A stretch of DNA of 35,745 nucleotides, from assembly GCA_014376935.1 (NCBI GenBank), contig JACMQO010000132.1:1-35745 (forward strand), in the 5' to 3' direction. The translations under genes were made by a program, and so were the position numbers. The number at the start of each line of letters is the position of its first letter. Position 1 is the first letter of the stretch. Positions 24,579-35,573 of this stretch are shown in pieces. The notes beneath the pieces were generated by a model. The model had not been told where the DNA came from. It did no database searches and saw only the letters and a list, made by a program, of their open reading frames with translations. The stretch comes from Bdellovibrio sp. GTDB taxonomy: Bacteria; Bdellovibrionota; Bdellovibrionia; Bdellovibrionales; Bdellovibrionaceae.

Positions 24579-25256
24579 ATGATAAAAGCTATAGCCTTTG
24601 ACCTTGATGACACTCTTCTAGACACGACGGGGATCTTAGTCCCCAAAGCCTCTGCGCATGCGTTTCAAATTTTAATCAACAACGGCCTTAGACTGACTTT
24701 GGCAGAGTGCCAAGAGCGTCGTTTGCAAATGATCCAGACGATGTCACACAAAGAAGTTTTCAGAATATTAGCTGACGAATTTGGCAATCAACAAACTGTT
24801 GCGGCCGTTCCCGCAGCTATCGCCGCTTTCTACGAACCGCAGCTTCCAGACACATTACCACTTTTACCTGGCGCAATCGAAAATATTAAAGAGCTTAAAG
24901 ACAAATACAAACTGTACATCGTTACGGCGGGAACCGAGTCTGCGCAACGATCAAAAGCTAAATCATTAGGTATCGAACCTTATTTTGAACATATTTACGT
25001 CGTAAACAGTTTGGATAAAAAAAGAAAAGAAGATGCTTTTTTAGATATTATTAAAAAAAATAATTTAAAAAACCATGAACTTCTTTGTGTTGGAAATTCG
25101 CTTTCGTCAGAGATTTTTGATGCGGTTAAAATTGGCGCCATCGCTTGTTATTTTGAATTCGGAGAAGAACGCTCGGTGTTTCCCACCGATCCGAAAGATC
25201 AACCCCACTTTCGCGTTCGCCATCATGGCGAGCTGATTGCGGCATGCAAACTGTAA
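24579..25256 (+). CDS. HAD-superfamily phosphatase (subfamily IA-like)
   Basis: 225 residues. HAD motif I is AIAFDLDDTLLDT (residues 4-16, nucleophile and acid Asp8/Asp10), motif II VTAGTES (about 112), motif III Lys in KKRKEDAF, and motif IV LLCVGNSLSSEIFDAVKIGA. Motif IV is GNS where many members have GDS, as in YjjG/PynA-like and other HAD hydrolases. The substrate is unknown; nucleotide, sugar-phosphate and phosphoglycolate substrates are all possible. No clear Shine-Dalgarno is seen. The 3' end overlaps the histidine-kinase start by 13 bp, so they are co-expressed. Confidence 0.85.
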   Translation: MIKAIAFDLDDTLLDTTGILVPKASAHAFQILINNGLRLTLAECQERRLQMIQTMSHKEVFRILADEFGNQQTVAAVPAAIAAFYEPQLPDTLPLLPGAIENIKELKDKYKLYIVTAGTESAQRSKAKSLGIEPYFEHIYVVNSLDKKRKEDAFLDIIKKNNLKNHELLCVGNSLSSEIFDAVKIGAIACYFEFGEERSVFPTDPKDQPHFRVRHHGELIAACKL

Positions 25257-27079
25257 CAACAAATACGAATCCAGTTAAAACGAATTTAGCTTTGCTTTGC
25301 GAAGATAAATCAATCCATGAAAAATGGAATGTTTTTGAGCCCCTTCATATTAAACCCGAAAATTTTAATTTTAAGAACTTAAGCACTGAGATCCTATTAG
25401 TCGACTTCGCTTCGCTGAAAAAATTAACGAGTTTAGATGATTTGTTTCAGGCACGCTCTCAAAAACAAGTTAAAAAAGTCATTCTAACTTTTGGTGATCA
25501 AAACGACGCCGCCGCAACTAGTTGGATCAACAGTATGAATCCCGATTTAGTCAAAAAGTCTTCAGACTTAACTTCAGAAGATTTTTTTATTTTATGGGAT
25601 TCGATCAAATTAGCCGAGCAAAATTTGACGTACATGAATTTATCCAGCGAACTGAACTCGGTTTACGAAGTCATCAAGGAAGAGCTTGAAACTAAAATTA
25701 ATGACAAGACAAAAAATTTAATCGAAAGCCGACGTAAAGTTTTTGAAGTCAACTCACGTGTCGAATTCTTACGTAAAACCTTATATACAATTTCTGAAAT
25801 TAAATCTTTTGATACCGCCGAAGAAAAACTAAATACACTTTTAACATCTTACAACAAAGTGACGTGGTTTAAAATTGTCGACCAAGCTTCAAGCATCGCC
25901 TTTGAAAAAGATGTTGATGATCAATTTGATTCGACATTGCTAAAAACCGAAATCACCCTAAAGGGGTTAATTTATTTTTTATATTTCTTCAAAGGGGATA
26001 AAAAGCCATTTAAACGAAACGACATTCATCTTTTTAAAAAAATGAGTGAAACTTTACAGATTAATTTATCGCGAATTAATAACTTACAAGCGCTGCAAAG
26101 GAACGAAAACTTTTTTGACTTGGCCTTTCACTCTTCAAAAAATCCGATTATCGTTTTGGATCAGAACTATCTTGTCATTCAAGCTAATAAAGCGGCTCGT
26201 ACAAGTTCTGCAAATCCAGATGCGAAACACTGTTATGAAATGCTGTTTAATCGCGATTCAAAATGCCTTAATTGCCATTTAGGAACAAAGTTTGAAATTC
26301 AAAATAATAACTCGTTCTTTAACGTGCATTCGCAACCACTTAATTTAATGGAACAAGAAGATAACCGCTATTGGGTTCACGTTTACGAAGATTCGACAGA
26401 GCAAAACTTATATGAAAAAAAATTAAGTCAATTTGCAAGGCTTGAGGAATTAGGCCTGATTTCAAGTTCCATCGCGCACGAACTGAATAACCCACTTGGT
26501 GGAATTTTATCTTACATTCAGATTATGAAAATGGAGTTGCCGGCGCAACATTCGCTAATGAGTGATTTGAATCTGATGCATGAAACTGGTTTACGTATGA
26601 AAAAAATCATCGAAGATTTGTTGATTTTTTCGCGCACGAATCAACAGTTGGTTTTAGAAGATGTTGATCTATCACAACTGACTCAAGATGTTTTAACTCA
26701 GGTCGATTTACAGTTTAAGATGGAAAAAATAAAAACATCTTTTTTACCACCCGCTGAAAAAACAATTTACAAACTATCGAAGACTTTATTTCAGGACGCG
26801 ATCCAATTAATCCTTTTATTCTTTATTCAAAAATCGAAGGAAAGGCGCCTGGGTAAACAAAACTTCATTAGTCTAGTCGAGGTTAAAATTACCCAAGACC
26901 AATCAAACATCTATTTAAGCTTAGCCAGTAATTTAGGCCCTTTCGAAAACGAGCTGAAAACGAAAGATCTTAACCTTTTAGCGGTCGAAAAGAATCTGAC
27001 AGATCAAGGGTTTCAGCTATTTATAAGCGAGCCTGCGAAAGAATGGATCCAATTTTCAATCCTTTTACCCCGTTATTAA
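25244..27079 (+). CDS. Sensor histidine kinase with degenerate ATP-binding domain
   Basis: 611 residues, no membrane segment, so cytoplasmic. About 10-120 resembles a pseudo-receiver (ILLVDFASL, KKVILTFGDQ). About 130-180 is a coiled coil; about 180-285 is possibly GAF-like. About 287-390 is a PAS domain with a Cys set (Cys330, Cys341, Cys344 in HCYEMLFNRDSKCLNC). DHp follows with the phospho-acceptor His412 in SSSIAHELNNPLGG. In the C-terminal catalytic region the N-box Asn is absent (FQDAIQLILLFFIQKSK). The G1 motif DxGxG is replaced by SNLGPF and no glycine-rich G2 is seen, so ATP binding looks lost. It may serve as a phosphatase, phosphotransfer or scaffold protein. It overlaps the HAD gene and precedes the NtrC-type regulator. 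Confidence 0.82.
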   Translation: MQTVTTNTNPVKTNLALLCEDKSIHEKWNVFEPLHIKPENFNFKNLSTEILLVDFASLKKLTSLDDLFQARSQKQVKKVILTFGDQNDAAATSWINSMNPDLVKKSSDLTSEDFFILWDSIKLAEQNLTYMNLSSELNSVYEVIKEELETKINDKTKNLIESRRKVFEVNSRVEFLRKTLYTISEIKSFDTAEEKLNTLLTSYNKVTWFKIVDQASSIAFEKDVDDQFDSTLLKTEITLKGLIYFLYFFKGDKKPFKRNDIHLFKKMSETLQINLSRINNLQALQRNENFFDLAFHSSKNPIIVLDQNYLVIQANKAARTSSANPDAKHCYEMLFNRDSKCLNCHLGTKFEIQNNNSFFNVHSQPLNLMEQEDNRYWVHVYEDSTEQNLYEKKLSQFARLEELGLISSSIAHELNNPLGGILSYIQIMKMELPAQHSLMSDLNLMHETGLRMKKIIEDLLIFSRTNQQLVLEDVDLSQLTQDVLTQVDLQFKMEKIKTSFLPPAEKTIYKLSKTLFQDAIQLILLFFIQKSKERRLGKQNFISLVEVKITQDQSNIYLSLASNLGPFENELKTKDLNLLAVEKNLTDQGFQLFISEPAKEWIQFSILLPRY

Positions 27080-27122
27080 ACATCTCGATCCTAAGTCCTG
27101 AAAATGACGGTTGATGCAGATT

Positions 27123-27142
27123 TTTTGACACGTACGTCAAAA
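27123..27142 (+). promoter_or_regulatory. Inverted repeat with consensus -35 box upstream of the response regulator
   Basis: TTTTGAC (27123-27129) and GTCAAAA (27136-27142) flank ACGTAC. The left arm contains TTGACA (27125-27130), a perfect sigma-70 -35 box. The best -10 is a poor TACTCT at 27150-27155 with a 19-bp spacer, so an activator or repressor acting at the repeat is plausible. No sigma-54 -24/-12 element is seen. Confidence 0.4.
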
Positions 27143-27197
27143 TTTGAATTACTCTTAATTATATAAATAAAAAGAACCCACCACGGAAGGAAGGTTC

Positions 27198-28601
27198 ATG
27201 AAATCACCAAGAGTCCTAATCTTAGATGATGAGTCGACGCTAAGAACGGCGTTGTTTCGTTTGCTTGATCGAAAAAGTTTTCAAGTTGTGACCGCGCAGC
27301 GTATCGACGAAGCCCGAACATTTCTATCACCTGAACGCACATTTGATTTAGCGATCATCGATATGAACTTACCTGACGGTAACGGTTTAGATTTCATGGC
27401 CGAATTAAAAGCGAATTCACCAAACACGCAAGTGATCGTCTTAACCGGCTTTGCAACTATCGATTCAGCAGTTCTGGCGACGCAAAAAGGCGCTTTTCAC
27501 TTTTTAACTAAGCCATTTAATGTGGAAGAGTTAATGAGTCTTGTGGATAAAGCATTAGCCATTAAAAGTTTAGAGCAAGAAAACCGCCAACTTCGTAATG
27601 AACTAGGCACCAAGTATCAGTTCGAACAAATCATCGGCGAAAGTGATGGCCTTAAACAGTGCTTATCATTGGTTGAGCGCGTGGCCCACACTGATTCAAC
27701 GGTTTTAATTACTGGTGAATCTGGAACCGGCAAAGAATTGATCGCGCGTGCGATTCATTACAACTCTCCACGTGCTAAAAATCCTTTTATTGCCATCAAC
27801 TGCGGCGCGATTCCGTCTGAACTTTTAGAAAGTGAACTATTTGGCCATGTGAGGGGCTCTTTTACCGGAGCTATCGCCAATCGTATCGGTCGTTTTGAAA
27901 TGGCCGATGAAGGCACTCTATTTTTAGATGAAATTGGTGACCTTGAGCCAAATCTACAAGTTAAAATTTTACGGGCATTGCAAGAACGCGCTTTTGAACC
28001 TGTCGGATCTACAAAGTCAGTTCAAGTCAACGTGCGCGTTATTGCCGCTACAAATTTAGATTTAGAAAAAGCAGTTTTAAATGGCCGCTTCCGTGAAGAT
28101 CTATTTTATCGTTTAAACGTCATTCCGATTCAGTTGCCCGCACTGCGTGAACGTAAAACAGATATTCCGATTTTATTAAATCACTTCATGAATCAATTTA
28201 ATAAAAATAAAACTCGTGTTTTAACGGGCTTCACCCAAGAATCTTTGAATTGCTTAAGTCATTACGCATGGCCCGGAAATATTCGCGAATTAGAAAACTT
28301 GATTGAACGCTTAAGTATTTTAAAAGGACAAGGCACAGTTGAACTGAACGACCTGCCACCAAAATACCGATCAAGTGTCGCTAGTTACGCTGAAACCGGA
28401 ACAATTCAAATACCCGAAGCCGGTTTAGATTTTAATTCAGCCGTTGATCAATTTGAAAATGCGTTGATTATGAAAGCTTTAGAAAAAACGGGGTGGAATA
28501 AAAACCAAGCAGCCATTTTACTTCGCCTTAATCGCACAACGTTGGTTGAGAAGATGAAGAAAAAAGGCTTGAAATCAAACGATTCCGAAGCCGAGATGTA
28601 A
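27198..28601 (+). CDS. NtrC-family response regulator (sigma-54 activator type)
   Basis: 467 residues. The receiver domain has Asp10/Asp11, phospho-acceptor Asp55 (AIIDMNLPDGNG), Thr83 and Lys105 (LTKPFN). The AAA+ domain (about 145-380) has Walker A GESGTGKE (173-180), the sigma-54 contact loop GSFTGA (220-225; GAFTGA in most members) and Walker B GTLFLDEIGD. A Fis-type helix-turn-helix ends the protein (NQAAILLRLNRTTLVEKMKK). It should activate sigma-54 promoters when phosphorylated. GGAAGGAAGG precedes the ATG. It lies 118 bp downstream of the kinase and has its own promoter candidate. Its stop directly abuts the stop of the convergent class V PLP gene. Confidence 0.93.
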   Translation: MKSPRVLILDDESTLRTALFRLLDRKSFQVVTAQRIDEARTFLSPERTFDLAIIDMNLPDGNGLDFMAELKANSPNTQVIVLTGFATIDSAVLATQKGAFHFLTKPFNVEELMSLVDKALAIKSLEQENRQLRNELGTKYQFEQIIGESDGLKQCLSLVERVAHTDSTVLITGESGTGKELIARAIHYNSPRAKNPFIAINCGAIPSELLESELFGHVRGSFTGAIANRIGRFEMADEGTLFLDEIGDLEPNLQVKILRALQERAFEPVGSTKSVQVNVRVIAATNLDLEKAVLNGRFREDLFYRLNVIPIQLPALRERKTDIPILLNHFMNQFNKNKTRVLTGFTQESLNCLSHYAWPGNIRELENLIERLSILKGQGTVELNDLPPKYRSSVASYAETGTIQIPEAGLDFNSAVDQFENALIMKALEKTGWNKNQAAILLRLNRTTLVEKMKKKGLKSNDSEAEM

Positions 28602-29723
28602 TTAAAACGACCGCAGGATAGTGATAAATTTATCAATGTCTTCGGCCGTATTGAATGCGTGCGGGGTGACCCGCATACCAGGCCCGCGTAACGGCACATG
28701 CACACCGTGATTAAAAAGAAACTTTTGTAGTTCTTTATTTCCTTTTTCAGTTGAAAAATTCACGAATTGATTCGGCTGTTCAGCGTAAGCAAAAACTTTG
28801 AAATTGAGTCTTTTAATTTCGTACCGAAGATGCTCGGCCAAACTAAAAGCTTCGGCTCTTAATGAATCCACACCGATTTGCATCGTGACTTCGATCGATC
28901 GACCTAAGGCACAAATTTCTAAAACTTGTTTTGATCCGGCTTCAAACTTTGATGCGTCTACTTTAGGTTCGCAGGAGAAATCACTTGGATCGTCGCATGT
29001 TCCATAAGTGCCGGAACCAATCGACAATGGTTGTATTTTTTGAATTAATTCTTTTTTTAAAACTAAAAAGGCAACGCCAACTGGGCCATTCAACCATTTG
29101 TGACTACCGCAAACCAATCCGTCTATTTTTAATTTCTTAAAAGACAGCGTGTGCATCCCTAAAGACTGCATCGCATCGACAAATAACAAAATACCGTTCT
29201 GCTGGCAGGCCGCTGAAACTTTTTCTAAATCGATCATCGCTCCCATTTGGTACTGAACAGCTGAAACGGCAATGACTTTCGTTTTTTTTGTGATTTTAGC
29301 AATCAACATTTCTGCGGTTACTAACTTTACAACATCTAAATCCACAACCACAAGTTGCGCTTCGGCCCGTTTACAAGCTTGTTGCCACGGGTATAGATTT
29401 GAAGAGTACTCTTGATCGAACAAAATAATTTCGTCGTCTTTTTTTAAATCAATTCCAAACGCGAACTGACTGATACCACCGGCGCAGCTTTGAAAGAATG
29501 CGATTTCGTCTTTTCCGCAATCGACAAGCTTTGATATTTGTTGGCGCGTCCAATCGACGCGGGCCATGTAGTCGTGATCAGAATAATATCCTTCTTCAAA
29601 AAAACGCTTTGCCCAAAAGTTGATTTCCTCTTGAGCGGGTTTCATGATCGGAGACAAACCCGCGTTATTTAAATGTAATTTTTCTGATCTAAAAAATAAT
29701 TCTTTGTACTCTTTTAAATTCAT
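28602..29723 (-). CDS. Class V aminotransferase-fold PLP enzyme, EgtE-like C-S lyase candidate
   Basis: 373 residues of the cysteine-desulfurase/isopenicillin-N-epimerase fold. It has LHLNNAGLSP near the start, the PLP-ring Asp183 in LLFVDAMQSLG and the Schiff-base Lys209 in CGSHKWLNGPVGV. EgtE, which cleaves the C-S bond of hercynylcysteine sulfoxide in ergothioneine synthesis, belongs to this fold. OvoB performs the same step for 5-histidylcysteine sulfoxide. The ATG overlaps the stop of the OvoA-like fusion by four bases (ATGA) and has no ribosome-binding site, indicating translational coupling, so it is very likely the lyase of the same pathway. A desulfurase or epimerase role is the alternative. 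Confidence 0.85.
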   Translation of the reverse strand: MNLKEYKELFFRSEKLHLNNAGLSPIMKPAQEEINFWAKRFFEEGYYSDHDYMARVDWTRQQISKLVDCGKDEIAFFQSCAGGISQFAFGIDLKKDDEIILFDQEYSSNLYPWQQACKRAEAQLVVVDLDVVKLVTAEMLIAKITKKTKVIAVSAVQYQMGAMIDLEKVSAACQQNGILLFVDAMQSLGMHTLSFKKLKIDGLVCGSHKWLNGPVGVAFLVLKKELIQKIQPLSIGSGTYGTCDDPSDFSCEPKVDASKFEAGSKQVLEICALGRSIEVTMQIGVDSLRAEAFSLAEHLRYEIKRLNFKVFAYAEQPNQFVNFSTEKGNKELQKFLFNHGVHVPLRGPGMRVTPHAFNTAEDIDKFITILRSF

Positions 29724-32700
29724 AGATTCACAAATTTTTTCAGTTTATCGACGAAAAGCTGTAAACGATCAAAGTGCAAGCGATGCCCCAGTAGACTTAT
29801 ACGAATAACTTTTTGCCCCGCAATGGTACAACTTGATAAAAACAATGTGTTGTCATTATTAATCAATTCTAAAAGTTTTTGTGTCTTATGACTTGAGTCT
29901 TCTAAATCTTTTCCTTCGGCGATAAAAGAAATAATCGTTAACTGCGCATCCGTAAATACTTTCAAACCTTTTATTTGCGCGATTTCTTTTTGAAGCCACT
30001 CTGTCAGTTTAAATTTTTCTTCCAAATTTAAAATAAATGGCTCGATACCTAAAGTTTTGATAGGAAGCCAAACACGGAAACCACGCCAGTCGCGTGAAAG
30101 CTCGATGCTAAGGTCAGCGTAATCAATTTTAATTCCGGTCTCTTCAGCTTCGGGTGATGGGGGCATATAACTGGACGAACTTAAATAGTCGTAATGGATG
30201 TTTTTAATATCACGTAGAAGTAGACCACCCGTTCCGTACGGAAGACATAGTGCTTTGTGCGGATCAAACACTAAAGAATCGGCTTGCTCGATTCCCTTAA
30301 GAATCGTTTTGCCCTTTTTGGTTAGCATAAATAAAGCCCCGTAAGCCCCATCCACATGAAACCAAAGATCATTTTCTTTCGCAATCTGCGCCACTTGATC
30401 TAATGGATCAATGGCGCCGGTATTTGTTGAACCTGCGGTCGCCACGATCGCAAACGGTTTCAGTCCCGCAGCTAAATCTGCTTTGATCTTCGATTCTAAA
30501 TCAGACGTTTCCATTTGCAAATTTGCGTTGACCGCAACTTTTTGCAAAGCTTCTGGCGGAAATCCTAAAAAATCTAACGCTTTTCCGACGCAGTGATGCG
30601 CCTGCGATGAAGCATAAACACGTGCTTTTGATAGATCGTAAAAACCTTTCAGTTTGTTTTTTCTTGCCATCGAAAGCGCAGCTAAATTCGCCTGACTACC
30701 ACCGCTTGTAAAGTAGCCAATCGACGTTTTTTCAGGAAATTGAAATAAATTTAAGAACCAATTCACCGCTTCTGCTTCTAAAGTCACAAATCCAGGGGCC
30801 ATCATATAGTGACCCGTATAAGGATTAATCGTCTGCGAAATCATTTGCGCCAAATTACTATAAACGTTCGCCGAACCTGAAACGTAAGCCGCATAACCCG
30901 GATGACCCGGCAATTGAACTTGCGGAGCTAATTCATCAAAAACAAGCTTTAACTGATCTGAAAAATTTTGCGGATGACGCGGAAAATTTTTTGCGGGTTG
31001 GTACGGAACCGCAAAATCGTCTCGCACGAAATTTTTTGCCGGATCGTGTGCCGTACCCGACGGTTTCATTTGTTCGTAATTCTTGTAAAAGTCCAAAATT
31101 TTGGACTCAGTCTCTTGAAACAATCCTTTTAAGTTTTGCTGGCTTGGTTCTAAAGGCTGATCAACATTTTTAAACCAGTCTGGCTTTTCGGCTATTTGAT
31201 CTAATACGCTGGCTCGTTTTTGATGAACGTATTCATTTGAACGGTTAAATTTAAATGAATTATTATCAAATGATCCATCTAACGTGACTGCCATTCTAAA
31301 ACCCGAATGCTGATAAAAGTGGGGTCTAAAATGAAAGCGCGCCCAGCGACTAGCTTCATGGCCACAGCTTATAAACGATCCGCCCAAAATCATGTAGTGC
31401 TTGCCATCATAACAAGGCGTTGAAAAATCGTCGTACAGTTTGTGCGTGCGAAAATTTTCTAAAGGATTAAATTGATCTTCTAATAAATGCCAAACGTTAC
31501 CAAATACTTTGCTGTCAGCCGGGCTAGCCGATGACCACACAAAATTAAAATTGATGTCTTCAAAATCAAAATTTTTAATTTTTGAAAATGATTGAATTTG
31601 TAAAACCGGATCACCCTTCATACCATCGCGAATCGCGACGTGTTCACCTTCAGTTAACAAACGATAATGAAGTTCGGATTGATCCTTTTTTTGCTTCCAG
31701 GCGCAGTAGGCTTTTGCTTCGTGATGATTCACTTCAACGGGCCAATCCCAGGGCATATCGATCATTTCGAAAATAGTTCTTAATTGATATTCATGAAGAC
31801 CTTCGGGTCCACTCGCTGACCAGAATGTCGGACGGCGGGTATTCCGAAACTTTCGCCATTGCAATCCTTCGGGCTCCCAAAATTCGTCTTTGCTATAGTC
31901 TCCGGATTTAACGAATTCATAGAATTCACCATTCGTAACCTGGGTTTGTGAAGACTGAAACGCGGCTAACGAGACTTCGCGATGACCGTATTCATTATCC
32001 CAACCGAATGATTTCTCATTGTCGGCCTTTCCAAGTATCACGGTTTTTTCTGGATATTTAACCCACGTGTTTTCTTTGTAATCAACGTTAGCGACCGGAA
32101 ATAAATTTCTAATTTTCGCGTAGCTTGGATGTAACGGAGCCCAGTATTTTGGTGTCTCAACATACTGAATTGGTAATTCACGAATTAAAACGGATGACGT
32201 TTCAAAATGAATTTTTTCATGCTCTAAAGACATCCATAGCGACCATAGTGCCGAATCGCTTTTAACACGATTTTTGTTTTCAATATCGGGATGGTTTAAG
32301 ATTAAATGGCGAATAACATCGTAACATTTTTTTCTGTAAGCATGGACGTCTTGAACCGAAGGCCAAAGCATTTCGTTTTTAGACATATCATCCCAGCTCA
32401 TTTCATCAACGCCGATCTCTAGTACTTTTTCTAAGTACAGATCAATCGGCTTTTCAATCAGCCCAGCCAAACGCAGTTTATTGATAAATAGAACGCATGT
32501 ATGCCCGTAATAAAAAATGAGAGGATGACGTAACTGATGGTACGGAGGGCGAACATAAATTTCTTCAGTCTTTAAACTTTGAAACAGAAGTTCAGTTAAT
32601 GTCCATTCGTTATCAAAATAATCTAAGACGTCTTGCCGCGTACAAATATCTAAATTTAAAAGCGGCAAGGCTTGTAGATAATTTTTTTCGCGATTGAAGC

Positions 32701-32827
32701 CCGGACAATTTTGCGGGGCTAAACCCGTCCACCAACTGTCGCCAAATTTTTTGGCGACTTCATTTTCTGTTTTTTCCGCAGGGGTAGACACACTTAAATT
32801 TGGATTTCTAGTTATTGTAACTGACAT
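29720..32827 (-). CDS. ovoA: OvoA-like 5-histidylcysteine sulfoxide synthase fused to a group II PLP decarboxylase
   Basis: 1035 residues. Residues 30-60 (DSWWTGLAPQNCPGF) and the DinB-type domain (about 65-215) match OvoA. The iron ligands are His109 (RHPLIFYYGHT), His203 and His207 with Glu209 (LEHEKIHFETSS). DEMSWDDM is an OvoA hallmark. About 255-515 is the FGE-sulfatase domain ending LGGSFISCGHEASRWARFHF, RPHFYQHSGFR. OvoA then normally has a SAM methyltransferase; here about 555-1035 is instead a complete aromatic-amino-acid/glutamate-decarboxylase-type domain: SGGSQANLAAL, His744 (SQAHHCVGKA), Asp826 (HVDGAYG) and PLP Lys858 (DPHKAL). The known module reaction joins His and Cys with O2 to give the sulfoxide. 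Decarboxylation of His, the sulfoxide or 5-thiohistidine is inferred. Start: ATG at 32827, apparently leaderless. Confidence 0.88.
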   Translation of the reverse strand: MSVTITRNPNLSVSTPAEKTENEVAKKFGDSWWTGLAPQNCPGFNREKNYLQALPLLNLDICTRQDVLDYFDNEWTLTELLFQSLKTEEIYVRPPYHQLRHPLIFYYGHTCVLFINKLRLAGLIEKPIDLYLEKVLEIGVDEMSWDDMSKNEMLWPSVQDVHAYRKKCYDVIRHLILNHPDIENKNRVKSDSALWSLWMSLEHEKIHFETSSVLIRELPIQYVETPKYWAPLHPSYAKIRNLFPVANVDYKENTWVKYPEKTVILGKADNEKSFGWDNEYGHREVSLAAFQSSQTQVTNGEFYEFVKSGDYSKDEFWEPEGLQWRKFRNTRRPTFWSASGPEGLHEYQLRTIFEMIDMPWDWPVEVNHHEAKAYCAWKQKKDQSELHYRLLTEGEHVAIRDGMKGDPVLQIQSFSKIKNFDFEDINFNFVWSSASPADSKVFGNVWHLLEDQFNPLENFRTHKLYDDFSTPCYDGKHYMILGGSFISCGHEASRWARFHFRPHFYQHSGFRMAVTLDGSFDNNSFKFNRSNEYVHQKRASVLDQIAEKPDWFKNVDQPLEPSQQNLKGLFQETESKILDFYKNYEQMKPSGTAHDPAKNFVRDDFAVPYQPAKNFPRHPQNFSDQLKLVFDELAPQVQLPGHPGYAAYVSGSANVYSNLAQMISQTINPYTGHYMMAPGFVTLEAEAVNWFLNLFQFPEKTSIGYFTSGGSQANLAALSMARKNKLKGFYDLSKARVYASSQAHHCVGKALDFLGFPPEALQKVAVNANLQMETSDLESKIKADLAAGLKPFAIVATAGSTNTGAIDPLDQVAQIAKENDLWFHVDGAYGALFMLTKKGKTILKGIEQADSLVFDPHKALCLPYGTGGLLLRDIKNIHYDYLSSSSYMPPSPEAEETGIKIDYADLSIELSRDWRGFRVWLPIKTLGIEPFILNLEEKFKLTEWLQKEIAQIKGLKVFTDAQLTIISFIAEGKDLEDSSHKTQKLLELINNDNTLFLSSCTIAGQKVIRISLLGHRLHFDRLQLFVDKLKKFVNL

Positions 32828-32835
32828 AGTGTTTA

Positions 32836-32876
32836 ATTATGACAATAGATCACCAATCACACAAACCAATGTGTGA
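32836..32876 (-). promoter_or_regulatory. Promoter and inverted-repeat operator of the OvoA-like operon
   Basis: On the minus strand TTGTGT (32864-32859) and CATAAT (32841-32836) are 17 bp apart. CATAAT ends 8 bp before the ATG, there is no Shine-Dalgarno, and a leaderless transcript is expected. A perfect 7-bp inverted repeat TCACACA-AACCAA-TGTGTGA (32857-32876) covers the -35 box and is a good repressor-site candidate. The half-sites resemble CRP-type TGTGA but face outward. Confidence 0.55.
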
Positions 32877-33077
32877 AAATCGATGATCTGATAGAGGTTT
32901 TATGTATTTTGCTAATCCAACATCTAGTTTTCATTTTTTATTTTTTCTTCCCCTTGATTTCAGACACATTTACATATTATCTACATATATAGTTTTTGTG
33001 TAAATTATTTTACATCGGGACTTTAAAAAACCGTCTTAAAAAGATGGCTTAATAACCACAATTGAATGAGGGGGCTC
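32877..33077. other. AT-rich gap between the divergent ovoA-like and pab operons
   Basis: The stretch is T-rich and contains a TGTAAA-TTAT-TTTACA inverted repeat (32999-33014) and a small hairpin (33031-33037 with 33041-33047, one G-U pair). An ATG at 32902 after GAGG opens a hydrophobic 33-codon frame ending at 33003; I do not consider it established as a gene. No clear sigma-70 pair with normal spacing was found for the pab side. Confidence 0.4.
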
Positions 33078-33185
33078 ATGAGTTCAAAAGGATTTGTTTT
33101 TAAAAAAACTAACTATTTCGACAAGTTAAATGTAGGCATATGGTTTACTCAATTATTAATAAGCTACGTCATTGCACTTAGCTAG
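33078..33185 (+). CDS. Possible 35-residue small protein or leader peptide upstream of pabA
   Basis: An ATG preceded by GAGGGGG opens a 35-codon frame ending in TAG. The peptide starts MSSKGFVFKKTNYFDKL, which is basic and polar. It ends VGIWFTQLLISYVIALS, a short hydrophobic segment that could insert in the membrane. It lies 100 bp before pabA, with a long inverted repeat between them. It could be a small membrane protein, a leader peptide or chance. One Trp codon is not enough to suggest a trp-type attenuator. Confidence 0.35.
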   Translation: MSSKGFVFKKTNYFDKLNVGIWFTQLLISYVIALS

Positions 33186-33205
33186 TTCTTTAAGCTTTTG
33201 TCGAG

Positions 33206-33251
33206 TGGGTTTAATTATTCTGTCGCGGTGCTAGCGTTACCCTTAAACCCA
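33206..33251 (+). promoter_or_regulatory. 9-bp inverted repeat in the pabA leader
   Basis: TGGGTTTAA (33206-33214) is matched perfectly by TTAAACCCA (33243-33251). The 28-nt enclosed segment can form further short pairs around GCTAGC. There is no T-run after it. It ends 34 bp before the pabA ATG and could be a leader RNA structure or an operator. Confidence 0.4.
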
Positions 33252-33285
33252 TGACATCTTCAAGTCTTTCAGGAAATTAAACCGC

Positions 33286-33831
33286 ATGAAAGACAATTTA
33301 AAAGTCATTCTTATAGATCACGATGATTCATTTACATTTAATCTTCGGCATTGGCTGTTTGATTTTGCGGATGAAGTTACCATCATTAATCATCGCGAAG
33401 TTTCAGAACAAAATTTTAGCCAGTTTGATTTAGTTGTGCTTTCACCGGGCCCTAAACACCCACAAGATTATCCGCATATTTTAACTTGGCTTAATAAAGT
33501 TTCGCCCGAAAAACCGATTTTCGGCGTGTGTTTGGGAATGCAGCTGATGACAATCTCTGCGGGTGGACAAGTGGAAAGTTATTCACCCCCCCTCCACGGA
33601 AAAACTTCTAATTTAATAAGCGGTAGTAACCTAAATAATTTAAAGGTCGCCAGATACCACTCTTTAAAATGTTCGGGACTAAAGCAATTTGACATATTGG
33701 CAGAAAGCGATGACCTACCCATGTGGATACAGCACCAAGAAAAGAAATGGATGGCTGTACAATTTCATCCTGAATCTTTCTTAACCGAAAATTCTGCACG
33801 ACTTCAGCACCATATAAAAGATTGGATCTAG
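33286..33831 (+). CDS. pabA: Aminodeoxychorismate synthase, glutamine amidotransferase subunit
   Basis: 181 residues. This is a class I amidotransferase with LIDHDDSFTFNL at the start, VLSPGPKHPQDYP, the nucleophile elbow FGVCLGMQLM (Cys82) and the catalytic His161/Glu163 in VQFHPESF. It is equivalent to PabA/TrpG. Pairing with a lysine-type PabB downstream argues for p-aminobenzoate over tryptophan synthesis, though some bacteria share one subunit. AGGAAA lies upstream of the ATG. One base separates its stop from pabB. Confidence 0.9.
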   Translation: MKDNLKVILIDHDDSFTFNLRHWLFDFADEVTIINHREVSEQNFSQFDLVVLSPGPKHPQDYPHILTWLNKVSPEKPIFGVCLGMQLMTISAGGQVESYSPPLHGKTSNLISGSNLNNLKVARYHSLKCSGLKQFDILAESDDLPMWIQHQEKKWMAVQFHPESFLTENSARLQHHIKDWI

Positions 33832-33832
33832 T

Positions 33833-34918
33833 ATGTTGCCAGTGATTTGTTTTTTTGAAAATGAAACTTATATTTATTCGACCGACTACGTTCTGCACTT
33901 ATGCCCTGACTCGATTTCGGCCACTGATTTTCTAAATCGGATTGAAAAAGAATTTGCCGACGAAATGAAAGTCGTTCAGGTCAATTTCGATGCCTACAAT
34001 TTCGAACCAACAAAGCATCAGACAAGACTTTACGAAAACAACAAAGCTTCTGTTTTTATTTTAAAAACATTCGAAATACTTTCTTTGACTGAAATTGCTT
34101 TAAAGCAAAAAGTAAATACTTCTTCGTCTGCCCCTTTTCAGTTACTAGTCACAAAAAATGAATTTTTAGAAAAAGTAATTCAAATTAAAGAAATGATTGC
34201 GGCCGGGCGCTTTTACCAAGTGAACCTGACATATGCATTTAAAGCTTTGTTAAAAACAAATCCGTTCGATTTCTTTTTAAATCATCAAGCCAACTACACC
34301 GGAAACTACAAAGCATTCTTGCCTTTTGCAAATCACAGCGTGATTAGCTTTTCTCCTGAATTGTTTCTAGAAAAAAAAGGTTTAACACTAAAAACCGAAC
34401 CTATTAAAGGTAGTATTTCAAAAAATGAAAACTCTGATACCGATCTTTTAAAAAGCGCCAAAGAACAGGCCGAGCTGTCAATGATCGTTGATTTACTAAG
34501 AAACGATTTAAATTCTTTAGAAACAAAATCATCGGCTCAAGTCACAAAGCACCGACAAGTGATGAATTTAAACTACATCCAACACACTTATTCAGAAGTA
34601 ACGATTCAAACTGAAAAAAATATGCCGTTTATTTTAGAAAAGATGATGCCCGGTGGATCGATTTCGGGCTGCCCTAAAAAAGAAAGTTTAATTGCGATCA
34701 GCGAACTTGAACCCACGGCACGCTCTATTTACACAGGTGGCATCGGTTTTTGGCAAAAGAATGACTTTAAATTGAATATTGCGATCAGAACCTTCGTTCA
34801 AACAGAAGAGGCTTATTATTACTTTGCCGGATGCGGAATTGTTTACGATTCAAATCCAGAAAAAGAATTTGAAGAGCTAATTAACAAAGCCGGGCGTTTA
34901 AATGTTCAGTACAAGTAA
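33833..34918 (+). CDS. pabB: Aminodeoxychorismate synthase component I
   Basis: 361 residues, shorter than E. coli PabB (453) because the N-terminal part is reduced. The chorismate-utilising core is complete: GRFYQVNLTYAF, VISFSPELFLEKK, TEPIKGSISK with the Lys192 that distinguishes PabB from anthranilate synthase, LSMIVDLLRNDL, MPGGSISGCPKKE and ELEPTARSIYTGGIGFW. It converts chorismate to 4-amino-4-deoxychorismate with ammonia from PabA. Its 3' end overlaps pabC by 17 bp. Confidence 0.92.
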   Translation: MLPVICFFENETYIYSTDYVLHLCPDSISATDFLNRIEKEFADEMKVVQVNFDAYNFEPTKHQTRLYENNKASVFILKTFEILSLTEIALKQKVNTSSSAPFQLLVTKNEFLEKVIQIKEMIAAGRFYQVNLTYAFKALLKTNPFDFFLNHQANYTGNYKAFLPFANHSVISFSPELFLEKKGLTLKTEPIKGSISKNENSDTDLLKSAKEQAELSMIVDLLRNDLNSLETKSSAQVTKHRQVMNLNYIQHTYSEVTIQTEKNMPFILEKMMPGGSISGCPKKESLIAISELEPTARSIYTGGIGFWQKNDFKLNIAIRTFVQTEEAYYYFAGCGIVYDSNPEKEFEELINKAGRLNVQYK

Positions 34919-35573
34919 TATTTTAGATACTTTACGTCTGGATTCGACTGGTTTCTTTCTTAAAGACCTACATGCCGAAAGAACTTTTGAGACCTATCAA
35001 ATTTTAGGTTTAAAAACAGATTTAAATTCAATTTTAAGAATTTATGATCAAGTAGAAGAGAAACTCATTAAAAATTTTCTAAAGCCGCAAAAGGTACGCT
35101 TAATTTTTAATGAAGCCACGCTTGATTACCATGTTCAAACTGAAAAATTAGATGCGATGTTAAATAATCCAATACGATTACAACTAACTACCATGGCTAC
35201 ACAAAAAGCTGGGATTGGGGCCGGAAATTATAAGTGGGAAGATCGTAGCTATTGGACACAATTACTAAGTCAAAAGCATGATAAAATTGACGATATTATA
35301 TCCATGAATACCAACAACGAAGTGACAGAAACCAGTCGATTCAACATTTTTATTTATTCGCCAGATCACGATGCTGTTTACACTCCCAATCTAGAAAGTG
35401 GCTGCATTAATGGCGTTTACCGCCGATTTATTTTTCAAACTCAGAAAATCGATCTGCCAAGCCTTGGTCGAAAATCCGTTTACGAAAAAACGCTGACCGC
35501 AAGCGACTTGAAGCAAGCAACGATTTTTGTCGCCAACTCGGTCCGCGGGGTGATTCGTGCGACTTTTATCTAA
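34902..35573 (+). CDS. pabC: Aminodeoxychorismate lyase (class IV PLP enzyme)
   Basis: 223 residues, compact. It resembles the PabC half of PabB-PabC fusions: ILDTLRLDSTGFFLKDLHAE, the PLP lysine probably Lys111 in AGNYKWEDRSYW, IDDIISMNTNNEVTETSRFN and the GCINGVYRRF segment. It releases pyruvate from aminodeoxychorismate to give p-aminobenzoate for folate. The start overlaps pabB. A branched-chain/D-amino-acid aminotransferase role is possible for the fold, but the operon context makes PabC the strong choice. Confidence 0.88.
   Translation: MFSTSNILDTLRLDSTGFFLKDLHAERTFETYQILGLKTDLNSILRIYDQVEEKLIKNFLKPQKVRLIFNEATLDYHVQTEKLDAMLNNPIRLQLTTMATQKAGIGAGNYKWEDRSYWTQLLSQKHDKIDDIISMNTNNEVTETSRFNIFIYSPDHDAVYTPNLESGCINGVYRRFIFQTQKIDLPSLGRKSVYEKTLTASDLKQATIFVANSVRGVIRATFI

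Follow-up and report, generated by a model that had tools for sequence, protein, structure and literature searches.

An OvoA-type sulfoxide synthase fused to a PLP-dependent decarboxylase: a candidate two-gene pathway to a decarboxylated 5-thioimidazole

Introduction

In the ordinary arrangement of the ovothiol pathway, the methyltransferase resides on the same chain as OvoA, and a separate lyase acts between the first and the third step (PMC12631010). Published sulfoxide synthases hold their iron by three histidines and possess a catalytic tyrosine (PMC4768315); in EgtB, an Asn-Trp pair binds hercynine (PMC9103826). Known deviations include OvoA proteins without a methyltransferase and the fusion of OvoB to OvoA in hydrozoans (PMC9103826). 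A paper of 2025 describes an acetyltransferase acting on 5-thiohistidine and also states how little is known about the enzymes transforming 5-thiohistidines (PMC12631010). A literature search that covered subscription papers in part found no description of an OvoA-decarboxylase fusion or of a thiohistamine or mercaptohistamine product.

The window analysed here, a stretch of 35,745 nucleotides from Bdellovibrio sp. (phylum Bdellovibrionota; contig JACMQO010000132.1), encodes such a fusion next to a second PLP-dependent enzyme:

29720..32827, minus strand: fusion gene P0001 (1035 amino acids), a predicted OvoA-type sulfoxide synthase joined to a group II PLP decarboxylase
31288..32827, minus strand: sulfoxide synthase half (residues 1-513, core 59-512), matching TIGR04344 and 8KHQ
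31015..31287, minus strand: linker (about residues 514-604), with low model confidence in parts
29723..31014, minus strand: decarboxylase half (about residues 605-1035), matching PF00282
28602..29723, minus strand: class V PLP enzyme P0002 (373 amino acids; PLP lysine Lys209), matching PF00266, a candidate C-S lyase
29720..29723, minus strand: ATGA overlap of stop and start codons, read directly from the sequence
32828..33285, minus strand: intergenic region 5' of the fusion gene, which is divergent from a pabA-like gene

Organization and distribution of the gene pair

The fusion gene ends in GTG AAT CTA TGA, and the start codon of P0002 lies inside this end, in the ATGA at positions 29723-29720. 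Both the overlap and the location of P0002 directly 3' of the fusion gene had been pointed out in an earlier note on this DNA; the shared stop and start make translational coupling likely. The intergenic region upstream contains one consensus promoter-like match (33004-32976), the number of matches there being not above chance, and no Rfam family was detected within the window, this region included.

Three genes on the plus strand (window positions 33286-35573), divergent from the fusion gene, resemble pabA, pabB, and pabC of aminodeoxychorismate synthesis; a single relative (G004) shares their synteny with the fusion gene. On the other side, an AtoS/AtoC-like two-component pair (25244-28601, plus strand) is convergent with P0002 and ends one base before it. 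Because it, too, is kept beside P0002 only in G004, the two-component pair is probably unrelated.

Fusions were searched among 119 near relatives and then among 369 genomes of the phylum. The near relatives yielded ten full-length copies, the window's own included, and the phylum as a whole 24 genomes with the fusion, which belong to six genera in three families: nine to the same family as the window (four genera), one to a second family of the order, and fourteen to one genus of a third family. Some fusion-bearing genomes, G013 and G055 among them, consist of a single contig and may therefore stem from isolates. The fusion is full-length in 22 of these genomes, with 52-71% identity to the window's protein, split over two contigs in another (G130), and disrupted in the last (G125). 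In the disrupted copy (L145:4191-9964), the fusion gene is broken by the open reading frame of a Tn5-type transposase and by a further frame break, and the lyase gene is intact. The recurrence of the same junction in 24 genomes of six genera rules out a chance joining or an assembly error, and with it the concern raised earlier that the fusion might be an accident of a single genome. No fusion was present in samples of 379, 395, and 398 genomes from three other phyla or among 72,556 sampled plasmids.

Directly downstream of every full-length fusion (22 of 22) lies a gene for a class V PLP enzyme related to P0002 at family level; whether this association is constant was a question that the earlier note had raised. 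The pair occurs in at least six unrelated neighbourhoods that have no third gene in common, suggesting that it forms a self-contained cassette.

Predicted structure of the fusion protein

A structure model of P0001, built from an alignment of 96 sequences from loci fetched in this analysis, has a mean pLDDT of 87.5 and comprises two well-predicted halves connected by a weak linker (about residues 534-640), with values below 50 at residues 534-538, 587-591, and 605-637; a model from a shallow alignment of ten sequences (pLDDT 52.7) was not used. Residues 43-528 superpose on OvoA (8KHQ; Z 43.5, rmsd 1.9 over 441), with EgtB-IV giving almost the same value (Z 43.3), and residues 562-1035 superpose on the decarboxylase 4OBV (Z 49.0) and on human HDC (4E1O; Z 44.1). 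Since each half superposes on solved folds, both are predicted to be complete.

The sulfoxide synthase half

The N-terminal half of P0001 matches TIGR04344 (ovoA_Nterm) with 540.8 bits at residues 59-512, covering positions 5-443 of the 444 in the profile; the score lies well above the equivalog cut-off of 400 bits. The models of EgtB (TIGR03440; 114 bits) and of the selenoneine synthase SenA (NF041186; 126.9 bits) stay far under their cut-offs of 360 and 420 bits, respectively. With nearly the whole profile covered and a placement among OvoA in the tree, the complete OvoA-type sulfoxide synthase that the earlier note had recognized stands. His109, His203, and His207 align with the three histidines of the solved OvoA 8KHQ, and Tyr465 aligns with its catalytic Tyr406; all four residues are invariant in the 22 full-length fusions. 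The three histidines had been correctly named before as part of the active site, but Glu209, listed along with them, is conserved and no known iron ligand, and the catalytic tyrosine had been missed.

In a phmmer search of the PDB, the best match is OvoA 8KHQ (E 7.3e-92, 312 bits), and EgtB-IV follows with 306 bits. This closeness, which is mirrored in the superpositions of the model, would be compatible with an EgtB-like synthase that adds the sulfur to C2 of hercynine or histidine, so that the cassette would yield a decarboxylated, ergothioneine-like 2-thio compound. Several observations render this very improbable. The fusions have the motif ARFHFRPHF in common with their methyltransferase-bearing sister OvoA proteins (other OvoA proteins: RYAFRRHF; EgtB-IV: RNWFRP), and the motif alignment shows that they lack the Asn-Trp pair of EgtB (residues from PMC9103826). 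EgtD (PF10017) is missing from the window's genome, and 19 of the 24 fusion genomes are without a strong match; in one fusion genome that encodes EgtD (G034), a separate EgtB-like gene adjoins it. In the trees, the fusions and their sisters are set apart from EgtB-IV with FastTree support of 0.97-1.0 and IQ-TREE UFBoot values of 84-100. Profile scores, motif, tree, and the absence of EgtD all disfavour EgtB, and the sequence evidence supports an assignment of the synthase half to the OvoA type.

The decarboxylase half

The C-terminal half matches Pyridoxal_deC (PF00282) with 188.7 bits at residues 614-969, over positions 11-373 of the 375 in the profile. Together with the complete predicted fold, this agrees with the earlier description of a full-length group II decarboxylase, as does the alignment with human HDC and AADC, in which His744, Asp826, and Lys858 correspond to the PLP-stacking histidine, the aspartate, and the Schiff-base lysine. 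These three residues, Thr801, and the loop residue Tyr887 are invariant in all 22 full-length fusions, so that true decarboxylation chemistry would be expected. A phenylalanine in place of the loop tyrosine would suggest an aldehyde synthase; the fusions have tyrosine throughout (22 of 22). That the domain is dead or a structural leftover, and that the pathway ends at 5-thiohistidine, is hardly conceivable: nothing direct favours it apart from the disrupted copy in G125, whereas the catalytic residues have all persisted despite a divergence of up to 48% among the 22 sequences.

Among solved structures, the decarboxylase half is most similar to the tryptophan decarboxylase of R. gnavus (4OBU, 221 bits); CSAD/GADL1 reach 139-148 bits and human HDC only 100 bits. 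The substrates of the closest solved enzymes are tryptophan, diaminobutyrate, and acidic amino acids, including cysteine sulfinate. The bacterial histidine decarboxylase model NF002748 gives P0001 83.5 bits, under its cut-off of 305. Ser911 occupies the position of Ser354, which selects histidine in human HDC, in all 22 fusions, but serine at this place is common among stand-alone relatives as well (28 of 74), including the majority of the sister stand-alone subfamily; it was therefore rejected as proof of histidine specificity. Tyr648 is the same residue in HDC and AADC; GAD and CSAD have glutamine at this position. Three pocket positions of HDC are changed in the fusions (Tyr81 to Val, Phe104 to Gly, and Thr105 to His). 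The histidine at the last of these, His673 in the pocket loop, is invariant in the fusions and occurs in 2 of the 74 stand-alone proteins, and a residue table of the 22 fusions and the 74 stand-alones shows that the fusions have lost the proline at position 650. Both differences fit a changed pocket, and neither of them names its substrate.

The affinity to enzymes for other amino acids and the undiagnostic pocket serine would agree with a substrate that does not derive from histidine, such as an aromatic amino acid or the cysteine sulfinate that the synthase makes as a by-product, in which case the fusion would merely couple two activities. This is unlikely, because a single unbroken fusion lineage with an invariant His673 speaks for a changed and constrained pocket, Tyr648 goes with HDC and AADC rather than with GAD and CSAD, and the cassette offers no further gene of the kind required for such a product.

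The fused domain is the only group II decarboxylase above the cut-off in the window's genome. In the tree of the decarboxylase half, the fusions form one clade (support 1.0) on a long stem, placed among stand-alone decarboxylases of many phyla. None of the stand-alone relatives among the matches listed lies beside OvoA, and the sister stand-alone decarboxylases have no common neighbour gene from which their substrate could be read.

The class V PLP enzyme

P0002 matches the class V family PF00266 with 171.6 bits but stays under the cut-offs of the EgtE model TIGR04343 (53.2 of 400 bits) and of the SufS model (136.2 of 475 bits). The earlier note's designation as an EgtE-fold PLP enzyme is thus right as to the class V PLP enzyme; the likeness to EgtE is loose, and SufS-type enzymes are nearer. 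The alignment shows that the loop with the catalytic cysteine of desulfurases is missing, and over its full length P0002 can be aligned with C-DES (1ELQ), a cyst(e)ine C-S lyase, but less well with EgtE (8IRK). Its constant association with the fusion gene makes P0002 the candidate C-S lyase of the pair.

Relatives of P0002 with 33-39% identity occur in genomes in which no OvoA was detected. In family f10 (L221, L219, L208, and L209), a class V PLP gene has mazG-like and CysQ-like genes in its vicinity, and an OvoA core adjoins it in some of these loci but not in others. It seems that the OvoA core of f10 was inserted next to a PLP gene already in place, and the occurrence of the locus in both forms points to the probable recruitment of a pre-existing class V enzyme.

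Origin of the fusion

When the synthase halves are placed in a tree, the fusions group into a single clade, and the OvoA proteins around it have retained the methyltransferase (support 0.79-1.0 in FastTree, UFBoot 84-100 in IQ-TREE). Their nearest relatives are the OvoA-methyltransferase proteins L012, of the same family (228.7 bits with TIGR04345), L182, of another phylum (187.8 bits), and that of Streptomyces sp. RerS4; the stand-alone OvoA cores of family f10, which also lie beside a class V PLP gene, branch farther out. This placement indicates that the decarboxylase replaced the methyltransferase, and the decarboxylase occupies the same position as the methyltransferase of the sister proteins, as the earlier note had it. 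A one-time replacement would be the simplest history.

Among the plasmids searched, the closest OvoA is that of the Streptomyces sp. RerS4 plasmid (L202; NZ_CP097323.1 140960-166543), which has 48% identity and carries the methyltransferase. Nearby are metK, additional methyltransferases, and ketosynthase/ACP genes, so that the region has the appearance of a biosynthetic cluster centred on an ovothiol-type thiol.

At the base of the OvoA tree, three OvoA-type cores branch off that stand alone and measure 464-496 amino acids (L175, 501-2973; L176, 1405-3976; L178, 470-2964); their genomes were sampled from the phylum to which the Myxococcales genome of L050 belongs. They carry the tryptophan of EgtB-IV, and each of the three has directly 3' of it a gene for an ATP-grasp ligase (RimK / cyanophycin-synthetase-like). 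The ligase possibly represents another branch, in which an amino acid is attached to thiolated histidine.

Proposed pathway

OvoC (TIGR04345, cut-off 170) is not reported in the fusion, and its best match in the window's genome has 35.8 bits; a second sulfoxide synthase is likewise absent from this genome. The combined absence of the Asn-Trp motif, EgtD, OvoC, and another sulfoxide synthase makes histidine the likely substrate of the synthase half and rules out ovothiol as the end product by the known route in the window's genome.

From these features, the following substrates, order of steps, and product may be inferred. The N-terminal iron enzyme would use O2 to attach the cysteine sulfur to C5 of histidine, forming 5-histidylcysteine sulfoxide. 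P0002 would split the C-S bond in the cysteine moiety, which would leave 5-thiohistidine and set free pyruvate and ammonia, as reported for OvoB. The C-terminal PLP half would then decarboxylate 5-thiohistidine to 5-thiohistamine (5-sulfanylhistamine), at the point where ordinary OvoA methylates the ring to give ovothiol. The first and the third step would thus reside on one chain, with the lyase acting in between, as in ordinary OvoA. Because the fusion keeps the OvoA layout and differs in the third step, the most economical reading has 5-thiohistidine converted to 5-thiohistamine. The earlier note had proposed 5-thiohistamine or a related amine-thiol as well; its interpretation is supported in part, namely in the OvoA type of the synthase, the place taken by the decarboxylase, the adjoining lyase gene, and the conservation of the fusion.

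That the gene pair makes a decarboxylated 5-thioimidazole, most likely in this order, appears reasonably probable, with more weight on the product than on the order. If such a compound is the product, decarboxylation would come last with a slightly better than even chance; decarboxylation as the first step would be a lesser possibility, and decarboxylation at the sulfoxide stage, with the sulfoxide still near, would be somewhat less plausible again. OvoA accepts histamine as a substrate, according to a review (PMC9103826), so that decarboxylation may also come first. In this alternative, histidine would be converted to histamine, the OvoA half would sulfurise histamine, and the lyase would free 5-thiohistamine; some histamine might be released. 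Ser911 at the position of Ser354 and the HDC-like Tyr648 are in line with it, yet the low score of the bacterial HDC model and the three altered pocket positions speak against histidine as the substrate of the decarboxylase, and histidine is presumably what the methyltransferase-bearing sister OvoA proteins, with their identical synthase motif, take as substrate. Overall, a histamine-first route seems rather unlikely.

The exchange of the OvoA methyltransferase may have created a dedicated decarboxylase of 5-thiohistidine or 5-histidylcysteine sulfoxide. Several genera of one phylum would then make a new thiol or amine of low molecular weight, either 5-thiohistamine itself or a compound closely derived from it; the scales tip slightly in favour of this proposal.

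Comparison with known systems

The similarity to EgtB-IV (8VIG, 8VIH) extends to the fold and the iron site. By contrast, EgtB-IV has the Asn-Trp motif and uses hercynine, whereas the fusions are without the motif and the window's genome is without EgtD. P0002 resembles EgtE / Egt2 and the C-S lyase C-DES as a fold-type I class V PLP enzyme that would likewise cleave a C-S bond, but it scores far under the EgtE cut-off. The decarboxylase half shares the fold (Z 44-49) and all catalytic residues with the group II PLP decarboxylases 4OBU/4OBV, HDC (4E1O), and AADC (1JS3); it differs from HDC, AADC, and 4OBU in a pocket with Ala/Ser650, Gly672, and the invariant His673 and in its fusion to a sulfoxide synthase.

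The closest described system is the OvoA/OvoB/OvoC pathway (OvoA_Th2, 8KHQ; OvoA of E. tasmaniensis). Both have a complete OvoA_Nterm domain with the three-histidine iron site and a tyrosine at the catalytic position, a separate PLP lyase, and a third activity fused to the C terminus. The differences lie in the third activity, a PLP decarboxylase in place of the methyltransferase (OvoC), and in the presumed lyase, which is a SufS/C-DES-like class V enzyme and always encoded in the operon. The 5-thiohistidine N-acetyltransferase of Proteiniphilum (PMC12631010) is comparable as an OvoA-linked enzyme that diverts 5-thiohistidine from ovothiol, but it is encoded by a separate gene, whereas here the decarboxylase is fused and the methyltransferase is absent.

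What is new in the present locus is that another kind of enzyme would finish the OvoA pathway, which suggests a sulfur-containing relative of histamine as the product. The end points described for OvoA-like pathways are ovothiols, their seleno analogue, and N-acetyl-5-thiohistidine; the replacement of the methyltransferase by a decarboxylase would represent a second, testable branch, with the whole candidate pathway contained in two genes. If this is true, the 5-thiohistidine core is a hub that different lineages finish in different ways.
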